Of a stretch of 64,000 nt of DNA, positions 1-13,258 are shown piece after piece. Source of the DNA: Flavobacterium azizsancarii (GTDB lineage: Bacteria; Bacteroidota; Bacteroidia; Flavobacteriales; Flavobacteriaceae); the NCBI RefSeq assembly GCF_027980145.1, contig NZ_JAMZNK010000002.1, positions 124,001-188,000 on the forward strand. Reading direction: 5' to 3'. The number at the start of each line of letters is the position of its first letter. Positions within the stretch are counted from its first letter, which is position 1. The translations under genes were made by a program, and so were the position numbers. The notes under the pieces are model-generated. The model searched no databases. It saw only the letters and a list, made by a program, of their open reading frames with translations, and had not been told where the DNA came from.

Positions 1-22
1 TAATCATGCAAATAAACCAATT

Positions 23-493
23 ATGAAACCAATTCCGAGAAGGATCATTACGGGAATAAAAAACGGAAAATCAATAATTGAAAAAGATGCAATTGTATCA
101 AATGTTTCAGAACATTTTCCTGGATTAATTATATCAGATATCTGGTCGACAGATTCTATGCCTGTAAAATTAGAAGAAGAAAAAGTGATCGAAAATACTG
201 CTTTCCCACATACACCCAAAAAAGGAAGTTATTTCAGGTATGTTCAAATACCACCCGATAAGGATCTTGGAATTGTGACGCCCAAAGGTCAGCCACATCC
301 GTTGATGCATCAAACTGAAACTTTAGATTATATCGTAATTCTTTCCGGTGAAATCTGGCTTATTGTTGATGAAGGCGAAACTTTATTGCAAGCCGGAGAT
401 ATTGTCGTGCAAAGAGGAACCAATCATGCGTGGAGCAATCGATCTGATTTGCCTTGTATTCAATTGGCGATATTATTGGATGCAGAGAAATAA
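23..493 (+). CDS. Cupin-domain protein
   Basis: A 156-residue single-domain cupin, probably cytoplasmic with no signal peptide. The first cupin motif is around residues 92-110 (HPLMHQTETLDY followed by a conserved Gly), and the second is around residues 127-140 (GDIVVQRGTNHAW). The His residues could bind a metal, but the substrate cannot be named. Related proteins often begin close to the RRIITG segment, which supports the ATG at 23. However, the frame is open to the left edge of the window, so an earlier start outside the window is not excluded. The gene stands alone and is followed by a repeat-rich region. Confidence 0.8.
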   Translation: MKPIPRRIITGIKNGKSIIEKDAIVSNVSEHFPGLIISDIWSTDSMPVKLEEEKVIENTAFPHTPKKGSYFRYVQIPPDKDLGIVTPKGQPHPLMHQTETLDYIVILSGEIWLIVDEGETLLQAGDIVVQRGTNHAWSNRSDLPCIQLAILLDAEK

Positions 494-504
494 GGTTGTT
501 GAAT

Positions 505-850
505 TTATGGCCCACGGATGACACGGATTCGCTATCGCGAAAACACGGATTTGCACGGATTTTTTTATGAATTTTACTTAGTTTTAGCCTCATTTTTGTT
601 TTTCGACGCAAAGAGAAATCTCCGCGAGAAGCTCGTCAAAAATTAGTGATTCTGATTGACGGTTTTGATTACCTATGATGGATTAAAATCCTTCCCTACA
701 ATATGTTTTTGTTCCTCCGGAACGTTCTTTAAAAATCGGAGGAATGATTTATTTTGTAGCAACGGATTTTAATCCGTTGTAAAGCAAAAAAAGAAATCCG
801 CGCAAATCTGTTTAAATCCGCATAAATCCGTGTGTCATAAAAACACCCAA
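505..850. repeat. Repeat-rich intergenic region
   Basis: This gene-free stretch contains stacked dispersed repeats. Bases 516-551 (an ACGGAT-rich segment around GCTATCGCGA) recur almost exactly, inverted, at 16147-16182. Bases 675-785 hold two self-complementary copies of a 'GGATTAAAATCC' type motif. Bases 785-835 repeat variants of AAATCCG, partly complementary to the first element. I see no gene here. Confidence 0.7.
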
Positions 851-851
851 C

Positions 852-896
852 CCTGAAACAAGTCTATTAAATTGATAGGATAAAAAAAGTTTCAGG
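852..896. repeat. Inverted repeat before the met leader
   Basis: CCTGAAAC (852-859) is the exact reverse complement of GTTTCAGG (889-896), with a 29-base loop. It ends just before the candidate -33 element of the leader promoter. It could be an operator or a weak hairpin; nothing in the sequence decides between these. Confidence 0.45.
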
Positions 897-898
897 TT

Positions 899-932
899 TT
901 GTATTAAAATTCAAATTATCTCTTTAAATTTG
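899..932 (+). promoter_or_regulatory. Candidate promoter of the met operon
   Basis: TTG at 899-901 and TAAATTTG at 925-932 are separated by 23 bases. This fits the Flavobacterium promoter pattern (TTG, 17-23 bases, TAnnTTTG) at its upper spacing limit. Transcription would start close to 938-940, almost at the leader ATG (941), so the leader may be translated from a very short or leaderless 5' end. Confidence 0.55.
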
Positions 933-940
933 CCGCAGCA

Positions 941-1030
941 ATGAAAAACAATAACCAGTATACAATTCATTACAACTGCAACACGATGTGTTGTGATGCT
1001 ATGCGATGGTATGAACTGGCTTATATATAA
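941..1030 (+). CDS. Cys/Met-rich leader peptide (attenuator ORF)
   Basis: A 29-residue open frame runs from ATG 941 to TAA 1028. It starts MKNNNQYTIHYNCNTM, and its centre is unusually rich in sulfur residues: Cys13, Met16, Cys17, Cys18 and Met21, followed by Arg-Trp-Tyr. It precedes a Rho-independent terminator and the methionine-type ABC transporter operon. Leader peptides loaded with the regulatory amino acid are the hallmark of ribosome-mediated attenuation. Cys codons 17 and 18 sit in the 3' arm of one hairpin, and the final codons form the antiterminator strand. I read it as a regulatory peptide sensing charged tRNA-Cys, possibly with tRNA-Met. I do not recognise it as a member of a named family. 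Confidence 0.75.
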   Translation: MKNNNQYTIHYNCNTMCCDAMRWYELAYI

Positions 1031-1062
1031 TAGTAAAATTATTTATTCCTGAAGCCTTTCAT
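979..1062 (+). promoter_or_regulatory. Attenuator with alternative hairpins
   Basis: Two structures are visible besides the terminator. CAACAC-GAT-GTGTTG (979-993) is a six-pair hairpin containing the Met16-Cys17-Cys18 codons. Bases 1011-1022 (ATGAACTGGCTT) can pair with 1052-1062 (AAGCCTTTCAT) in two five-pair helices around a small internal loop. That second pairing would capture the 5' arm of the terminator and act as an antiterminator. A ribosome stalled at Cys17-Cys18 would leave 1011-1022 free; one that reaches the stop codon would cover it and allow termination. Confidence 0.7.
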
Positions 1063-1088
1063 AATCAATTGAAAGGCTTTTTGATTTT
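1052..1088 (+). terminator. Intrinsic terminator in the met leader
   Basis: AAGCCTTTC (1052-1060) pairs perfectly with GAAAGGCTT (1071-1079), with a 10-base loop, and is followed by a T-rich tract interrupted by GA. It lies between the leader peptide and metN, about 70 bases before the metN start. It would stop transcription before the structural genes. Confidence 0.85.
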
Positions 1089-1159
1089 TAATTTTAGAAT
1101 TTCAGAAGCGTTAAGTATTTATGTCTGTGGATTTAGCAGGTTTAACTTGAATTATAAAA

Positions 1160-2191
1160 ATGATTGAATTAAAAAATGTAACGAAGAATTTTCATCAGAA
1201 AAACCGAATTGTTTCGGCTTTATCAGATGTTTCTCTTAAAGTTCCTCCAGGGAAAATCTTTGGCGTAATTGGAACTTCGGGAGCTGGAAAAAGTACCTTA
1301 ATTCGATGTGTAAATTTGTTGGAAAGACCAACTTTTGGAGAAATTATCGTAGACGGAAAGTGGTTAATGCAATTAACGAATGCACAACTGGCGATTGAAA
1401 GAAGACAAATCGGAATGATTTTTCAGCATTTTAATTTACTTTCCTCGAGAACGGTTTTCGAGAATGTAGCTTTTCCATTAGAATTGGCTGGTGCATCAAA
1501 AGGAGAGATCCAGACTCGTGTTTTAGAATTATTGGAATTGGTAGGTTTAGCCGAAAAAGCCAATGATTATCCTGCAAGCCTTTCAGGAGGTCAAAAACAA
1601 AGGGTTGCTATTGCGAGAACTTTAGCAAATAATCCAAAAGTACTTTTGTGCGATGAAGCGACAAGCGCATTGGATCCGGCAACGACAAGATCGATTTTGA
1701 ATTTATTGAAAGATATTAATCGTCGTTTAAACATTACGATTTTATTGATTACCCATCAGATGGAAGTTGTTAAATCAATTTGTGATGAAGTTGCTGTAAT
1801 CAGCCACGGAAAACTGATAGAACAAGGAAGTGTAGGCGAAATTTTTGCTGATCCTAAACATGAATTAACCAAGGAATTTATTGCTTCTTCCTTACATCTT
1901 GACATTCCGAGAGTATATCAGGAAAGATTACAAAAGGTAGATGGCGAAGGTTTGAGTCCGTTATTGAGATTAGAAATGACTGGGAAATCAGTAAATGAAC
2001 CTGTTATTTCTGAAGTTTCGAGATTATTTGATACCAACTTTAAAATTGTCAGCGCACAAATGGATCAGGCCGGAGATGTAAATTTTGGCGTAATGCTGAT
2101 TGAATTATCAGGTAAACGTGAAAATTACGAAGCTGCAATTGAATATTTTATTTCTAAACATATTAAAACAGAAATTATAGGTTATGTCTGA
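1160..2191 (+). CDS. metN: Methionine-type ABC transporter ATPase MetN
   Basis: This 343-residue protein is the cytoplasmic ATPase of a MetNIQ importer for methionine or related sulfur amino acids. Walker A is GTSGAGKST (38-46), the signature LSGGQKQR is at 141-148, and Walker B with [12 protein letters not shown] is at 161-172. Residues from about 265 match the C-terminal NIL domain, which in characterised MetN proteins binds substrate and inhibits transport. It is the first structural gene after the attenuator and overlaps metI by 8 bases, implying translational coupling. The leader suggests control by cysteine supply, so substrates other than methionine should be kept in mind. Confidence 0.97.
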
Positions 2192-2837
2192 TTCTATTAT
2201 TGACTTATTATTAAAAGGAACCTGGGAAACCATCGTGATGACATTTGTGTCTGGCTTTTTTGGTTTTGTATTAGGACTTCCAACAGGTGTATTGCTTTTT
2301 CTTACCCGAAAAAATCAAATTCTGGAGCAACCAATTTTAAACAGAACTTTATCGATTTTAGTAAACATTTTTCGTTCTATTCCGTTCATTATACTAATTG
2401 TCTGGATGATTCCGTTTACGCGTGCTTTGGTAGGAACTTCTATTGGTGTGAGTGCCGCTTTGGTTCCGTTAAGTATTGGCGCGGCGCCATTTATAGCACG
2501 ACTTGTTGAGAATAGTCTTCTTGGTTTGCCTTCAGGATTAATCGAAGCCGCAAGAGCTTTGGGTGCAACACCATTACAAATTGTATATAAAGTATTGCTT
2601 CCGGAAGCTTTGCCATCATTAATAAATGCCGCATCGATCACGTTAATCACACTTGTAGGTTATTCTGCAATGGGTGGAGCAGTTGGTGCAGGCGGATTGG
2701 GACAAGTTGGGTATCAATACGGATATATTGGTTATGATGCCGTAACGATGAATTCGGTTTTGGCATTATTGGTACTTTTGGTATTTATTATTCAATTTGC
2801 GGGTGACTTTTTATCAAAGCGATTTGACCATAGATAA
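2184..2837 (+). CDS. metI: Methionine-type ABC transporter permease MetI
   Basis: A 217-residue inner-membrane permease of the MetI family with about five hydrophobic segments. The EAA loop that docks on the ATPase is visible at about 121-140 ([20 protein letters not shown]). The start overlaps the end of metN and the length is normal for the family. It works with MetN and the lipoprotein MetQ. About 300 bases of repeats separate it from metQ, which is unusual inside a three-gene transport operon. Confidence 0.96.
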
Positions 2838-3110
2838 TACTTTGCGATTTTACCGCAACGAGCGTGAAGTTTTTTTTATGCTTTGTGAATACTTTGACAT
2901 TTTACCGCAAAGTGCGCGAAGTTTTTTAATTAAGCGGTTTTATAAAAACACAAAGTTCGCAAAGCTTTGTGTATATTTTGAGATTTAGCTACAAAGCTTT
3001 TGTGAACTTAAATTGTGTTTACAAACTTCAATCTTAGTGAACTTTGCGAAAAACCTTTGTGTTCTCTGCGGTAAAACCTTTGCGGTAAAAAACACATATT
3101 ACACATAAAT
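2838..3110. repeat. Dispersed repeat between metI and metQ
   Basis: The segment carries two direct copies of a TTTTACCGCAA...GCG.GAAGTTTTTT unit (from about 2848 and 2903). Further on, from about 3030, there are reverse-complementary copies of the same words (GAACTTTGCGAAAAACC, TGCGGTAAAACC, TTTGCGGTAAAA). It can fold into a long imperfect hairpin. The same family appears at 9240-9345. Short open frames here are translations of the repeat, not genes. Confidence 0.7.
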
Positions 3111-3137
3111 TAAGAATTAAAAATTAAAAAATACGAG

Positions 3138-3956
3138 ATGATTACTAAAAATAAATTTTTAAAAACGGCCGGAATTATAGCATTAGCATTTGTAGTAGCA
3201 AATTGCGGAAAAAGTAAAAATAATGATCCACATCATATTAAAGTAGGAGTTGCAACGGGACCGGAATATAAAGTGGCAGAAGCGGCTAAAAAAGTAGCAA
3301 AAGAAAAATACGGATTAGAAGTAGAGTTAATTTCTTTTAATGATTATGTGATTCCAAATGAAGCTTTGAGTCAGGGAGATATTGATGTAAATGCTTTTCA
3401 GCACAAACCATATCTTGATGAACAATCGAAACAACGCGGTTATAAATTAGCAATCATTGGTAAAACATTTATTTATCCGATTGCAGCGTATTCTAAAAAA
3501 ATCAAAAACCTTTCGGAATTAAAGGACGAAAGCACAATTATTATTCCAAATGATCCAACAAACGGTGGACGTTCTTTATTGCTTTTAGAGAAAAACGGAT
3601 TGTTGAAGCTTAAAGCAGGAATTGGCTTATTGCCTAAAGTAACGGATATTGTAAGTAATCCTAAAAAACTTAAAATATTAGAACTGGAAGCACCTCAATT
3701 GCCAAGAGCTCTGGATGATGAGAACGTAACAATTGCGATTATCAACAATACTTTTGCTTCTCAGGCAGGACTTATTCCTTCGCGTGATGCTTTGTTTGTT
3801 GAGGATAAAGACTCTCCTTATGTAAACTTGGTAGTAAGTCGTGAAGACAATAAAAACGAAGAAAAAGTAAAACAGTTTTTACAGGCTTTTCAATCTGCAG
3901 AAGTTGAGCAGGCCGCTCTGAAAGAATTTAAAGGCGGTGCTGTAAAAGGCTGGTAA
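3138..3956 (+). CDS. metQ: Methionine-binding lipoprotein MetQ
   Basis: A 272-residue substrate-binding protein of the NlpA/MetQ family. The N-terminus is a lipoprotein signal with a hydrophobic stretch ending VVANC; Cys23 would be acylated, anchoring the protein to a membrane. The mature part begins with GKSKNNDPHHIKVGV, followed by the typical NlpA segment PEYKVAEAAKKVAKEKYGLEV. It delivers substrate to MetI/MetN. A strong terminator follows at 3984, so this is the last gene of the operon. Confidence 0.96.
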   Translation: MITKNKFLKTAGIIALAFVVANCGKSKNNDPHHIKVGVATGPEYKVAEAAKKVAKEKYGLEVELISFNDYVIPNEALSQGDIDVNAFQHKPYLDEQSKQRGYKLAIIGKTFIYPIAAYSKKIKNLSELKDESTIIIPNDPTNGGRSLLLLEKNGLLKLKAGIGLLPKVTDIVSNPKKLKILELEAPQLPRALDDENVTIAIINNTFASQAGLIPSRDALFVEDKDSPYVNLVVSREDNKNEEKVKQFLQAFQSAEVEQAALKEFKGGAVKGW

Positions 3957-3983
3957 TAAAAATGAGTATCTTTTTGATATAAA

Positions 3984-4026
3984 AAAGAAGCGCTGGATCA
4001 GTAGATTTAGCGCTTCTTTGGTTTTA
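3984..4026 (+). terminator. Terminator of the met operon
   Basis: AAAGAAGCGCT (3984-3994) pairs with AGCGCTTCTTT (4009-4019) around a 14-base loop, and T-rich sequence follows. It lies 28 bases after the metQ stop. Confidence 0.9.
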
Positions 4027-4195
4027 AAAAAAAAATATTAAATAAATCATAAGAATCATTTTATGGAAGAAAAAAAGCAAAATGAAATCGTTACCTTTAT
4101 GCTGCTTATTTACAATTCCTAAAATCGAATCCATTAACAAACACGCTGAATTGATTTATTTTTCAATCGGTATATTTATTCTAAAAATCAATCCA

Positions 4196-4720
4196 ATGAA
4201 TTTTCAAACAAAAAACATTATTGCTTCACTCTTGCTTTGTTTTGGAGTTACTGCTGCACAGGCTCAACAAAAAGAGGGCGCTTCAAAATGCCGTTATGTT
4301 AAAACTGCTGCAGGTTATTTAATGGTTTTACGGGAGTCAGATAATGTTATCGAATCGATTGAAAAGCTCGTTCGGGAAGAAAAAATTCCTTCCGGAAACT
4401 TTACAGGAATTGGCTTTGCACAAGAGGTTACTTTTGGTTTTTATGATTTTAATCTCAAGAAATTTAATCCAAAAACCTATAATAAAGTCGAAATGGGAAG
4501 CCTCACGGGTTCTATCGCCTGGAATGGAGACAAACCTTCATTACACATTCATGGCGTGGCAACCGATGATAAATTTAGTGCATATGGCGGACACATTCTT
4601 GCCTTAAAAGTTGGCACAGGTTCTATGGAGGTTTACATTACAGTGAATACAGAAAAACTGGAACGAAAAATTGAGCAGCCCTTAAATGCTAATGTGCTGC
4701 AATTGCCCTGCATACAATAA
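4196..4720 (+). CDS. Exported PPC (DUF296) domain protein
   Basis: A 174-residue protein with a clear signal peptide (hydrophobic IIASLLLCFGVTAAQA, cleaved about residue 24). The PPC/DUF296 domain follows (YLMVLRESDNVIESIEKLVREE, then SGNFTGIGFAQEVTFGFYD, PSLHIHGVATDD and GGHILAL). PPC proteins are usually described as cytoplasmic trimers or fused to AT-hook DNA-binding domains; an exported version is less familiar. The frame extends upstream to an ATG at 4082, but the signal peptide begins exactly at ATG 4196, so I use that start. The function is unknown. Confidence 0.8.
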   Translation: MNFQTKNIIASLLLCFGVTAAQAQQKEGASKCRYVKTAAGYLMVLRESDNVIESIEKLVREEKIPSGNFTGIGFAQEVTFGFYDFNLKKFNPKTYNKVEMGSLTGSIAWNGDKPSLHIHGVATDDKFSAYGGHILALKVGTGSMEVYITVNTEKLERKIEQPLNANVLQLPCIQ

Positions 4721-4807
4721 AGTGCTGACTTAAATTTGCAAAAGACTGATTGAGGCAGGAATTAAAAAACTAAATGCATTTTCAATTCTTACTAAACCAA
4801 CTATTGG

Positions 4808-5410
4808 TTAGTCAATCTCTATACTTTCAATTGCTTTTTTCATTGCATTCTCTTTTACTTCCGGTACTTTAAGCCCTTCAGCACGAAATGCCGTAAGATC
4901 TGTCATGCCCAGAAACCCCAGAAATGCTTTTAGATAAGGAACTACAAAGTCATTGGCTTTGCCGGGACCTTCAGAAAATATACCACCGGAGCTCATTGCT
5001 ACGTAAACTTTTTTGCCTGTTACTTTTCCAATTGGGCCATTTTCTCCATACCCAAAAGTTATTCCTGCTCTGGTGATATGATCAATCCAGGCTTTTAATG
5101 ATGAAGGTATAGTAAAGTTATAAAGAGGTGCGCCGATAACGATAATATCTGCAGCCAATAATTGATTTACAACCTGATTAGAAAAACCAATAGATTCTTT
5201 GTCTTGTTGTGTCAGCTGATCTTCCGGAATAAAAAAAGTGCGAAGAACGTCAGGATCAAGATGTGGAATTTTGACATCGGTCAGATTCAATTCTTCAACC
5301 GTACTGTTCGGATATTTATCCTGAATTTTTTCAATTATAGCTTTACCCAATTTAATGCTGTAGGATTCATTGCTTTGTATGCTTGAAATTAAATGAAGAA
5401 TGTGTTTCAT
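4808..5410 (-). CDS. azoR: FMN-dependent NADH-azoreductase
   Basis: A 200-residue flavodoxin-fold reductase of the AzoR family, which uses FMN and NADH to reduce quinones and azo bonds in the cytoplasm. Seen are the FMN-phosphate loop region near the N-terminus (ISSIQSNESYSIKLG, about 9-23), the conserved GAPLYNFTIPSSLKAWIDHI segment (about 94-113), the ITFGYGENGPIGK region and MSSGGIFSEGPG. Its divergent neighbour is an HxlR regulator, a common control arrangement for quinone- or electrophile-induced reductases. Confidence 0.93.
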   Translation of the reverse strand: MKHILHLISSIQSNESYSIKLGKAIIEKIQDKYPNSTVEELNLTDVKIPHLDPDVLRTFFIPEDQLTQQDKESIGFSNQVVNQLLAADIIVIGAPLYNFTIPSSLKAWIDHITRAGITFGYGENGPIGKVTGKKVYVAMSSGGIFSEGPGKANDFVVPYLKAFLGFLGMTDLTAFRAEGLKVPEVKENAMKKAIESIEID

Positions 5411-6092: not shown

Positions 6093-7118
6093 ATGAAAGC
6101 AGTACGATATTATGGACACAAAGATGTTAGGATTATAAATGATTTAGAAAAACCTAAACCTTCAGGCGATGAAGTTTTATTAAAAATTGGTGGAGCAGGA
6201 GTATGTCATTCAGATTTGCACATTATTGATGAAGGAACAGTTGTAGGAACGACATTTACTTTAGGACATGAAAATGCAGGTTGGGTAGAAGAAGTGGGAC
6301 AGGATGTAAAAGGTTTTAAAAAAGGAGATGCCGTTTTAGTTTACGGTCCCTGGGGTTGCGGACATTGCAAACCCTGCCAACATTCGAACGAAAATTATTG
6401 TGATCACCAATCTGAACAAGCTTATGGCGGAGGATTAGGATTAAATGGCGGAATGGCTGATTATATGCTTGTACCTTCTTCTCGTTTATTGGTACCTATT
6501 CACGATTTAGATCCTGTAATTGCAGCTCCACTTACAGATGCTGCCCTAACACCTTATTCCGCCATAAAACGTTCGTTGCATAAATTAATGCCGGATGAAT
6601 ATGTGGTGGTTATTGGAGTTGGTGGACTTGGACATGTGGCACTTCAAATTTTATCCGAAATGTGCGGATCAACCATTATTGCGTGCGATATAACACCAGA
6701 AAGACTTGAATTTGCCAAATCACTTGGCGCAGCTCATGCGATAAATTCTACGGATAAAAATGCTGCCGAACAAATCAAAAAAATCACCGGAATAAAAAAA
6801 GCCAAAGTTGTACTTGATTTTGTGGGAGCAACTTCGACAATAGATTTAGGAACAAAAATTATCGGCTTAGATGGAGACTTAACCATTGTAGGGTTAGGCG
6901 GAGGAAAATTTGAATACAATATGAATGGATTGCCTTTTGGTGTAAGCATGACAAATCCGTATTGGGGATCCAGAACAGAATTAATGGAAGTAATAGGTCT
7001 GGCGATTCAAAAGAAAATTCACATCGAAATTGAAAAATACAATCTGGATCAGGCACTTGAAGTATACGATAAATTACGTCAGGGAAAAATTAAAGGACGC
7101 GCTGTTTTAATTCCTTAA
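6093..7118 (+). CDS. Zinc-dependent alcohol dehydrogenase (MDR)
   Basis: A 341-residue medium-chain dehydrogenase using NAD(P). The catalytic zinc ligands are expected at Cys38 and His59-Glu60 (motif GHENAGWVEEVG). The structural zinc site is Cys89, Cys92, Cys95 and Cys103. The Rossmann motif VGVGGLGHVA starts about residue 174, and a downstream acidic residue (Ala-Cys-Asp) suggests NAD preference. The length is normal for the family; the alcohol substrate cannot be deduced. It is monocistronic, with a strong terminator 35 bases downstream. Confidence 0.93.
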   Translation: MKAVRYYGHKDVRIINDLEKPKPSGDEVLLKIGGAGVCHSDLHIIDEGTVVGTTFTLGHENAGWVEEVGQDVKGFKKGDAVLVYGPWGCGHCKPCQHSNENYCDHQSEQAYGGGLGLNGGMADYMLVPSSRLLVPIHDLDPVIAAPLTDAALTPYSAIKRSLHKLMPDEYVVVIGVGGLGHVALQILSEMCGSTIIACDITPERLEFAKSLGAAHAINSTDKNAAEQIKKITGIKKAKVVLDFVGATSTIDLGTKIIGLDGDLTIVGLGGGKFEYNMNGLPFGVSMTNPYWGSRTELMEVIGLAIQKKIHIEIEKYNLDQALEVYDKLRQGKIKGRAVLIP

Positions 7119-7152
7119 TTTTAAAAATAGATGAGCTTGTTTTATTACAAGC

Positions 7153-7190
7153 AAAAAGCGCTGAACCAGTACATTCAGCGCTTTTTTTTA
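7153..7190. terminator. Bidirectional terminator
   Basis: AAAAAGCGCTGAA (7153-7165) pairs with TTCAGCGCTTTTT (7174-7186) around an 8-base loop, with T-runs on both strands. It lies between the convergent dehydrogenase and MFS genes and can serve both. Confidence 0.92.
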
Positions 7191-8497: not shown

Positions 8498-9160
8498 TTA
8501 GTAATTAATATGTCCTGTGATTTTTGCGACAATATTCCATGTCTTTTTTTGATCTTTTGCAATAATGCTTTTTAGAAGCTGTTCGTGTATAGCATATGTT
8601 TCCTGAAATACTATAGTGTCCGGATAAAGAGTAAGAAATTCCTTTTTTAGATGTTTAGAAACGGATTTGTATAAATCGGCAAGGATCTCATTTTTTGATG
8701 CTTCTGCAATAGCAATATGAAATTGTATGTCAGCTTCAACACATTCTTCTATTAAACCTTCATTGGCCGCTTTCATACGATCAGCCAAATGTTGTTTCAT
8801 AGCAATTATATCATCTTCTGTTCTGTTAAGTGCTGCTTTTTCAGCAATTTTCAATTCAAGCAATTGTCTTACTTCATCTAAATCCTCCAGACTTGCACGT
8901 TTAAAACGTTGGTCCATTGGCTCACGTGTATTGGTAACTTCCTGAACAAATGTACCAACACCTTGCTGAATACGAAGTAACCCGGAATTAGCCAATAGCT
9001 TCATTGCCTCTCTTATAGAGGATCTTCCAACACCAAAACTTTTCATCAACTCCGCTTCAATTGGTAGCTTCTCATTGATCTTATAGTGACCCAGAGCTAT
9101 TTGCTCCTGTAATTTTGAAGCAACTTCTTCTGCGAGAGATTTTTTATTGATTAAAGTCAT
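8498..9160 (-). CDS. FadR-subfamily GntR regulator
   Basis: A 220-residue repressor-type protein. The N-terminal winged helix (about 5-75) shows the GntR pattern: LAEEVASKLQEQIALG, LPIEAELMKSFGVGRSSIREAMKLL and GLLRIQQGVGTFVQ. The C-terminal all-helical FCD domain (about 90-215) contains acidic and His residues that bind metal or ligand in this family. It sits 41 bases upstream of the MFS exporter in the same direction. Identical operator words precede both genes, pointing to autoregulation and control of the exporter. The ligand is unknown. Confidence 0.93.
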   Translation of the reverse strand: MTLINKKSLAEEVASKLQEQIALGHYKINEKLPIEAELMKSFGVGRSSIREAMKLLANSGLLRIQQGVGTFVQEVTNTREPMDQRFKRASLEDLDEVRQLLELKIAEKAALNRTEDDIIAMKQHLADRMKAANEGLIEECVEADIQFHIAIAEASKNEILADLYKSVSKHLKKEFLTLYPDTIVFQETYAIHEQLLKSIIAKDQKKTWNIVAKITGHINY

Positions 9161-12124: not shown

Positions 12125-12631
12125 ATGTCTAAAATAGCAAGATTCGTAGTAATCATAAATGATAATGTAATTTGGATGGAAGAAAAAGCACTGAAATTCT
12201 ATTCAGATTTATTCGTTGATTCAAAAGAAATAGGAGAGAAGTATGCAAATGAAAATTTGTCAAGTCAGAAATTATTCAAAATACAAAATGACTTTTCGGT
12301 TGAAATGTTGATGGCTTACGAAGGCGAAAATCCGTTGTCTTTTATGAAACTGAATTCGTCCCGACTTTCAAATCAAAATCTTGGCGCTAATAAAGCGATT
12401 GGTGTTGATCATATTGTTTACTTTAATCAAGAAGATATTTTGATACTTTTTAAACGTGCTCAAGAAGTAGCTTTACAAAGAAAACACGATTTAATTTGGG
12501 CAAAAGCCTTTGAGATAGATACAGTTTTAATAGAAACATTGAAGTCTTTGGGGTACGTAGAATTTAATTATGAAAATGATGTGAATCGGGATACCAATCA
12601 AAAACAACTTTATTTTAAGAAATCAGTTTAG
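12125..12631 (+). CDS. Putative GNAT-like protein, hypothetical
   Basis: A 168-residue cytoplasmic protein. The C-terminal third (ALQRKHDLIWAKAFEID, then LIETLKSLGYVEFNYE) resembles the last helix and strand of GNAT acetyltransferases, where a residue after a helix precedes a 'G[YF]' strand. The central acetyl-CoA pyrophosphate loop (R/Q-x-x-G-x-G/A) is not visible, so it may be catalytically inactive or a different fold. The ATG at 12125 follows an AT-rich leader. The end overlaps the end of convergent pdeM by 9 bases. Function unknown. Confidence 0.65.
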   Translation: MSKIARFVVIINDNVIWMEEKALKFYSDLFVDSKEIGEKYANENLSSQKLFKIQNDFSVEMLMAYEGENPLSFMKLNSSRLSNQNLGANKAIGVDHIVYFNQEDILILFKRAQEVALQRKHDLIWAKAFEIDTVLIETLKSLGYVEFNYENDVNRDTNQKQLYFKKSV

Positions 12632-13258
12632 TTTTATTTTGACTACTTCATCATTTGCAATGGCATACACAATATCATTTTGTTGCGGTTTTAAAACATG
12701 CTTTCCTGTAAATTCTCCAAAAGCAGCCAGAATCATTTGGTTTTCTTTTCTGAAAAAGCAAGGTAATTTCAGAGATTGATCACCAAAGCCACGAAGAATA
12801 ATTCCCGGATGAATATGCCCTGAAAAATTAAAAAAACCTTCTTTTATGGAAGGATGATGAGTCAATAAAAAATCATCGATTTCAAGAAATTCGACAACAT
12901 CGATATCGAGTTTTATGTAATGCTTTTTGTCAATAATATCGTGATTTCCTGCAATCAGGATAATTTTGTTTGTACAGCAATCTACCCATTGCTGGAATAA
13001 ATCCCATTCAGAATTTTTAGAACTATGGAATAAATCTCCGAGGAAAATAATTTTTTCAGGTTTAAAATTTTCGACAATATCAGTCAAACGTTTAAAATTT
13101 TCCGAAACTACATTATTCGGAATCGCGACGCCATGTTTTCTGAAATGCGAGACTTTACCCAAATGCACATCAGAGATCAGAAGCAAATTTCTGGTTTCCC
13201 AAAATAAAGCACCGCTGGGATGTAAAATAAACGTTTGATTTTGTATAGTAATTGTCAT
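12623..13258 (-). CDS. pdeM: Ligase-associated phosphoesterase PdeM
   Basis: A 211-residue calcineurin-type metallophosphoesterase. Metal-binding motifs are in the expected order: SDVHLGK (Asp30, His32), GDLFHS (about 74-79), GNHD (104-107), THHPS and GHIHPG. In bacteria this family is encoded beside an ATP-dependent ligase, a DExH helicase and an MBL nuclease, and all are present here. It starts 6 bases after the helicase stop, so the two are cotranscribed. It is predicted to process nucleic-acid ends during repair. Confidence 0.93.
   Translation of the reverse strand: MTITIQNQTFILHPSGALFWETRNLLLISDVHLGKVSHFRKHGVAIPNNVVSENFKRLTDIVENFKPEKIIFLGDLFHSSKNSEWDLFQQWVDCCTNKIILIAGNHDIIDKKHYIKLDIDVVEFLEIDDFLLTHHPSIKEGFFNFSGHIHPGIILRGFGDQSLKLPCFFRKENQMILAAFGEFTGKHVLKPQQNDIVYAIANDEVVKIKLN

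Follow-up and report, generated by a model that had tools for sequence, protein, structure and literature searches.

The window, i.e., the whole stretch of 64,000 nucleotides from Flavobacterium azizsancarii that we analyzed, carries a methionine ABC transporter operon on its forward strand. metN (1160–2191) encodes the ATPase, metI (2184–2837) the permease and metQ (3138–3956) the substrate-binding lipoprotein. All three products exceed the cut-offs of NCBIfam methionine-transporter models (TIGR02314, 540 bits against 500; NF008049, 382 against 212; NF008285, 426 against 374, respectively). The gap between metI and metQ (2838–3137) contains near-repeats, read by eye, and a terminator-like hairpin (2948–2972); it may reduce co-transcription of metQ or consist of degenerate repeats. 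Upstream of metN, positions 864–1087 hold, in this order, a dyad-like element, a −7 box, a 29-codon ORF and a terminator.

The ORF lies at 941–1030 on the forward strand (stop codon 1028–1030) and encodes the peptide MKNNNQYTIHYNCNTMCCDAMRWYELAYI, with Cys13 (977–979), Met16 (986–988), Cys17 (989–991), Cys18 (992–994) and Met21 (1001–1003) as control codons. The promoter match that the original prediction had placed before this ORF is present as a Bacteroidetes-type −7 box, TAAATTTG (925–932, forward strand). It fits TAnnTTTG, the −7 box consensus given for Flavobacterium psychrophilum in the accessible part of PMC9723704. As the ATG starts only 8 nt downstream of the box, the transcription start probably lies just before the ATG and the leader mRNA would be nearly leaderless. 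In an E. coli-type promoter scan of window positions 1–5000, the leader promoter was not among the predictions. On both strands of the window we counted 245 ATG-initiated ORFs of 20–40 amino acids; four of them have at least five Cys plus Met, eight have CC, and MCC occurs in a single one, the leader ORF itself. An NCBIfam search of three leaders gave no match to any leader family, and in an Rfam scan of the window no family, SAM riboswitch included, reached its gathering score.

The dyad-like element, CTATTAAATTGATAGG (864–879, no strand assigned), is conserved 61 nt upstream of the −7 box. CTA...GATAG recurs at −61 to −64 from the box at 27 of 27 leader-bearing metN loci (25 of them distinct), and a stricter pattern, CTA[TC]TAn(2-4)TTGATAGG, is found at 23 of the 27. 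At locus L098 the element is a perfect inverted repeat, CCTATCAtttTGATAGG. From this conservation we consider it a possible transcription-factor site. A half-site resembling the element, CTATCAAATTAG, was also seen by eye near metY.

RNA structures in the leader

A hairpin over the Met16-Cys17-Cys18 codons, originally predicted at 979–993, is present on the forward strand and its fold extends to 978–994 (z −2.4, 2 of 200 shuffles as good); it is possibly a pause hairpin. The intrinsic terminator, for which 1052–1079 had been given, spans 1051–1080 on the same strand, with region 3 at 1052–1063, region 4 at 1070–1080 and a T-rich tail to 1087. Its fold has a z of −4.6, with 0 of 200 shuffles as good. 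The 5′ strand of the antiterminator, i.e., region 2 (ATGAACTGGCTT), occupies 1010–1022 on the forward strand. The claimed complementarity of 1011–1022 to the terminator arm 1052–1062 amounts to 5+5 pairs and −9.6 kcal/mol; shuffled sequences average −2.9, and a single one of 200 was equally good. Taken as a fold of the entire stretch 1004–1066, the antiterminator stands out less (z −1.65, equaled by 11 of 200 shuffles). Antiterminator and terminator are mutually exclusive, as the 10-pair antiterminator uses the terminator 5′ arm. The entire leader (935–1130) folds with a z of −2.7 (1 of 200 shuffles as good).

Region 1 (CCAG, 955–958, forward strand) has CTGG at 1016–1019 as its partner in the RNAalifold consensus fold. 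In the window's own leader, the predicted fold lacks this region 1–region 2 pairing and joins region 1 to about 1007–1010; in several other leaders the region 1–region 2 pairing is weak as well. Window positions 1–5000 contain four terminator-like sites, the leader terminator included, versus 3.9 expected; simple scans for terminator and promoter patterns are insufficient alone to reveal the attenuator, and the comparative evidence is stronger.

Conservation of the leader upstream of metN

We found a leader upstream of metN at 25 of 29 distinct Flavobacterium loci, and all 25 leaders differ. The loci without a leader are L104–L106, where metN is diverged, and L005, which has just 21 nt upstream. 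Among 150 Flavobacterium genomes, 26 have a close metN (E 2.3e-141 or better); the leader is present in 23 of them, all with metN at about 89% identity or above, and absent in L104–L106. Five further metN loci came from named records; two of them, L001 and L002, duplicate L083 and L084 and were counted once, and L003 and L004 are two more loci with a leader. The −7 box is found at 27 of 27 metN loci with leader, an invariance that is partly by construction since loci entered the alignment via their TAAATTTGC box, on which it is anchored. Every locus with a close metN carried the TAAATTTGC box.

Alignment upstream of metN, the check suggested with the original prediction, showed a short ORF with MCC or CC whose frame and Cys/Met codons are kept among the relatives. 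The peptide consensus is roughly M[KR]xxxQ...Y....(M)MCC....M, and at least one Cys and at least one internal Met occur in 25 of 25 distinct metN leaders; one Cys of the pair has been lost in three lineages (L094, L097, L100). The finding that would have counted against the original prediction, a lack of conservation or a loss of Cys/Met, did not turn up. Length differences between the start codon and the Cys pair are multiples of three, and the frame drifts 3′ of the pair. The homologues have 22–32 amino acids, with the peptide kept over its first half and variable C-terminal frames, and the leader stop codon begins anywhere from 9 nt before to 11 nt behind the start of TGGCT.

Codon content and covariation

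For comparison we pooled 43 distinct leaders, i.e., the 25 at metN and 18 second-class leaders in front of other genes (see below). Their 1196 residues include 116 Cys (9.7%) and 157 internal Met (13.1%), compared with 0.6% Cys and 1.7% Met in a set of 40 large window ORFs. MCC is found in 35 and CC in 37 of the 43 leaders. The Cys pair is spelled in four ways that differ by silent changes (TGCTGT 16, TGTTGT 7, TGTTGC 7, TGCTGC 7). The silent position of the first Cys codon is tracked by its hairpin partner, the middle base of the closest AAY/AGY (Asn/Ser) codon upstream. In the 37 of 43 leaders having such a codon, the base pairs are A-U 13, G-C 21, G-U 1 and A-C 2 (Fisher p 3.8e-7, kinship uncorrected). 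Moreover, the terminator covaries, with both sides changed at 5 of 10 pairs (29 sequences, 0 of 500 shuffles as high).

The search for covarying structure was thus borne out for hairpin and terminator, whereas the antiterminator is conserved without covariation. Its cells are paired to 82%, compared with 29–54% in other registers. Region 2 could be placed in 40 of the 43 leaders (not found in three, mis-picked in L086), and there the antiterminator duplex has a mean of −8.0 versus −3.1 kcal/mol for shuffled sequences. For the 10-pair antiterminator, 318 of 500 shuffles were as high on covariation score and 367 of 500 on pairing; for the 6-pair antiterminator, 485 of 500 were as high on pairing. 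The antiterminator core is nearly invariant across the leaders, and the missing covariation would be expected if GGC must pair with two partners, which is not proof. The region 1–region 2 pairing is conserved as well, with 71.8% of its cells paired, a value reached by 18 of 500 shuffles, and its covariation score is unremarkable (108 of 500 shuffles as high).

Proposed attenuation mechanism

The leader is very probably a ribosome-mediated transcription attenuator controlling metNIQ, and the sensed signal is most likely the joint supply of Met-tRNA and Cys-tRNA. Its parts, their conservation, the covariation of hairpin and terminator and the mutually exclusive pairing are observed directly in the sequences. 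From these we infer leader translation, stalling, read-through and the direction of the response. Transcription would begin just 5′ of the leader ATG. With Cys or Met scarce, the ribosome would stall at the Met16-Cys17-Cys18 block, leaving 1010–1022 free to pair with 1052–1063; once 1052–1063 is occupied, the terminator 5′ arm could not close and RNA polymerase would enter metNIQ. With both Cys and Met ample, the ribosome would reach the stop codon and cover 1010–1022, and the terminator would form.

Modelled ribosome positions agree with the claim that a stall at Cys17-Cys18 frees the antiterminator. For a ribosome whose A site holds the second Cys codon, pairing of region 2 with region 3 rose above the shuffled control in 40 of 43 leaders, with a mean of 4.7 pairs versus 0.9 in shuffled sequences before region 4 is made. 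A ribosome simulated at the stop codon covered region 2 in 43 of 43 leaders and the terminator formed; these simulations relied on a simple rule for placing region 2, which chose a wrong place in L091 and a poor one in L176 and L178. Once region 4 is present, the terminator beats the antiterminator at equilibrium in 43 of 43 leaders; antitermination must hence be kinetic, i.e., rely on kinetic trapping. Without a ribosome, the window leader RNA is predicted to fold as the antiterminator and not as region 1–region 2, which means that read-through should be high without translation, unlike in trp. Apart from this behavior of the untranslated RNA, the modelled order would be the classical one of stalling and antitermination or run-through and termination, with Met and Cys codons. 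Of the features of a trp-type transcription attenuator that we tested, most are recognizable in the leader sequences. Conserved frame, Cys/Met codons, hairpin, antiterminator and terminator, together with the modelled ribosome positions, support the original reading as leader-peptide attenuation.

Sensed amino acids and alternative explanations

MetNIQ is best read as a methionine importer under sulfur-amino-acid control. The original prediction had assumed a sensor of cysteine supply and an importer that may carry cyst(e)ine. We depart from both: internal Met exceeds Cys in the 43 leaders, and Met/Cys leaders also precede metY; the three subunits match methionine-transporter models, and a Met/Cys leader of Streptomyces metNIQ has already been predicted in the accessible part of PMC8079986. 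The leader itself would be no evidence for cyst(e)ine transport. As the leaders are at least as Met-rich as Cys-rich, a joint sensor of Met and Cys supply is the best reading. A switch that senses cysteine only, in front of a cyst(e)ine importer, would explain why tandem Cys codons are placed where a stalled ribosome frees the antiterminator, but the Met frequency, the metY association and the transporter family matches make it very unlikely. Conversely, methionine could be the only amino acid sensed, with Cys codons incidental or tuning translation speed. metNIQ and metY are indeed methionine genes, Met is the commoner residue in the leaders, and metY carries a SAM riboswitch in other genera; we nevertheless consider this version unlikely, since 37 of 43 leaders retain CC at the position best suited for stalling and Cys makes up about 1 in 10 leader residues. 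Our strong confidence in attenuation concerns the mechanism, and the two single-amino-acid versions overlap with it.

Two other explanations do without amino-acid sensing. In a metal- or redox-sensing Cys-rich uORF of the CruR type, the nascent peptide would bind copper or react via its thiols and so alter ribosome arrest. The Cys/Met clusters could bind Cu(I), and the order MCC is largely kept (35 of 43 leaders). CruR-type uORFs are described with CXXC and a RAPP arrest motif (accessible part of PMC9426467), the window leader however has neither; moreover, methionine genes are among those downstream of the leaders, the Met/Cys order drifts in metY leaders with both residues frequent, and the leader has an intrinsic terminator, which does not exclude Rho-dependent termination. 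We regard this explanation as highly improbable, and give slightly less credence still to a small functional protein encoded by the ORF, followed by a constitutive terminator. The conserved first half of the peptide would suit such a protein; the length range of 22–32 amino acids, the variable C-terminal frames and the missing NCBIfam match for three leaders argue against it, as does conservation that tracks the control codons and the RNA pairing.

Relation to known leader peptides

The transcription attenuator proposed here resembles metL, the predicted attenuator of metNIQ in Streptomyces lividans TK24, which likewise encodes 29 amino acids with Met and Cys (MSTTSDRTPATEATTTPGARCMCRRMCAF) on a leaderless transcript (PMC8079986). 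metL belongs to another phylum, is named methionine-dependent and, according to its authors in the accessible part of that paper, has no typical Rho-independent terminator, whereas terminator and antiterminator are clear and conserved in Flavobacterium. In Rhodobacterales, uORFC-8-2 before cysS shares with our leader the tandem Cys codons, a stem containing them and an intrinsic terminator; it differs in having Cys only, in its alphaproteobacterial origin and in its target, a tRNA-synthetase gene (accessible part of PMC8632094). Mycobacterial and actinobacterial Cys leaders are likewise short ORFs that contain runs of Cys and lie ahead of cysteine genes, but no conserved terminators are reported for Mycobacterium in the accessible parts of PMC1262725 and PMC4633059, and translation attenuation is cited for M. 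smegmatis cysteine genes (excerpt of PMC13236596). Leader attenuation upstream of amino-acid operons is described for F. psychrophilum, and these Flavobacteriaceae leaders have the same layout of a short ORF rich in the regulated residue, a terminator and the operon (PMC9723704). The Flavobacteriaceae leaders otherwise met are Ile/Val-rich and of ilv type, and the accessible part of PMC9723704 names no Met/Cys leader.

We recognized no Met/Cys leader in Bacteroidota in the literature searched, mostly without subscription papers, and the F. psychrophilum supplementary table may list such loci. The switch type is known, its use for Met/Cys in Flavobacterium seems undescribed. New are the phylum, the complete attenuator, the regulon, the tandem units and the proposed exchange with SAM riboswitches. 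Codon-reading leader control of methionine genes seems hardly documented, with the predicted S. lividans case as the one example in the accessible literature searched, and Bacteroidota leaders are little studied.

Leaders in front of other genes

With a covariance model of the metN leader, a further leader turned up in the window's genome (C128:10222-10387, E 1.6e-7), and 119 of the 398 Flavobacterium genomes had matches with E up to 0.01; the weakest matches may be due to chance. We fetched 20 second-class loci, hand-picked from these matches. Downstream lies a glutamate/leucine-dehydrogenase-type gene at nine, an EamA-type transporter at five, an amino-acid permease directly at one, metY at one and another gene, which we take to be CpeT-like, at two. 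Family names were confirmed on one representative each for dehydrogenase, EamA and permease, and on the own-genome metY. L180 was a false hit (E 1.4e-4), and at L177 no convincing target gene follows the leader. The window match at 7032–7187 is a chance hit.

Judged by their sequences, the leaders are best interpreted as forming an attenuation regulon for sulfur amino acids in Flavobacterium and near genera, because leaders of the same kind also precede metY and a few other genes. The nine leaders before a glutamate-dehydrogenase-like gene, for which a link to sulfur is puzzling, count against this reading.

A second short Cys-containing ORF lies 3′ of the terminator at the nine dehydrogenase-type and the five EamA-type loci. 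In the own genome (L112), this Cys-rich ORF (MRSNRNTNIIMQCCLIKIPCCGCRH, 1691–1767) is located between the first leader and the glutamate-dehydrogenase-type gene, and the double-ORF arrangement has homologues at L162, L164, L166 and others.

Own-genome matches of model R1 at L113–L116 appear by eye to be ordinary terminators, except L115, by eye an Ile/Val leader before an ilvD-like gene; L117–L130 were left out. Model R2, run with stricter filters on 397 family genomes, gave matches outside Flavobacterium in four genomes, in each case an Ile-rich ORF in front of a gene resembling ilvE or ilvD (named by eye). R2 missed the metY leaders L200, L201 and L203, it can hence not show that metN-type leaders are confined to Flavobacterium. 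At L195–L198 and L115, short ORFs rich in Ile/Val and accompanied by a terminator precede genes that look by eye like ilvE or ilvD; they are ordinary branched-chain attenuators.

metY leaders and SAM riboswitches

In the genome of the window, metY (O-acetylhomoserine sulfhydrylase) is preceded by the leader MIMKTIANNMMICCEMMQMCIQNRCC and a terminator (position 8654 of L191, i.e., C110). metY matches occur in 37 of 61 Flavobacterium genomes. We oriented the loci by tblastn and defined a leader as a short ORF with at least three Cys plus Met and a terminator within 110 nt. Among the best 30 of the 37 loci, 29 have leader and terminator, and L257 has none; two leader–terminator units in series are found at 12 of these best 30, excluding one L253 ORF judged spurious. 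Of the 1170 residues in the 47 pooled metY leaders from Flavobacterium and three other genera, 18.6% are internal Met and 14.4% Cys; these leaders remain rich in both residues, whose order drifts. Their antiterminator is written differently, with CCAAAAG at the leader stop codon versus CTTTTGG in the terminator 5′ arm, as read by eye at 14 loci; the own genome has CTAAAAG at the stop codon.

In Flavobacteriaceae, 77 of 120 genomes of different genera have metY. Among the best 30 of these 77, a SAM-I riboswitch lies just upstream of metY in 23, a leader in four (Flavobacterium, L200, L201, L203), neither in three (L209–L211, where L209 has just 383 nt upstream) and both in none. An Rfam scan of 29 of the 30 Flavobacterium metY loci (L256 left out) found no SAM riboswitch upstream of metY. 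At metN, none was found at 16 loci without leader, the exchange of leader and SAM riboswitch is hence seen for metY only. The leader-bearing genera may be close kin, which would mean few independent exchange events. We see about even chances that Flavobacterium and near genera swapped the SAM riboswitches of methionine genes for leaders with Met and Cys codons, and that the tandem metY units act as a serial graded or two-input gate. A lineage-specific regulon that combines two control amino acids with tandem units and a visible exchange with SAM riboswitches makes two questions directly testable, i.e., how translation and attenuation are coupled in bacteria without Shine-Dalgarno-driven initiation, and why a sensor of a metabolite, SAM, is traded for a sensor of tRNA charging.

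Further regions of L191 are worth recording. At about 12147–12900, three elements in series precede a gene that looks by eye like metX: an ORF of leader type that ends in ...ICVCVC, with a terminator, a small ORF and a SAM-I riboswitch (12789–12897). The small ORF at 12397–12600 (67 amino acids), between leader and riboswitch, and another at 8834–9022 (62 amino acids, no match in a Pfam search), between leader and metY, share a similar C-terminal part (SLLF.MY). Near metY, a SAM-II riboswitch lies on the reverse strand (4942–5050) upstream of a metK-like gene (by eye), so that SAM sensing and leader control coexist in this genome.
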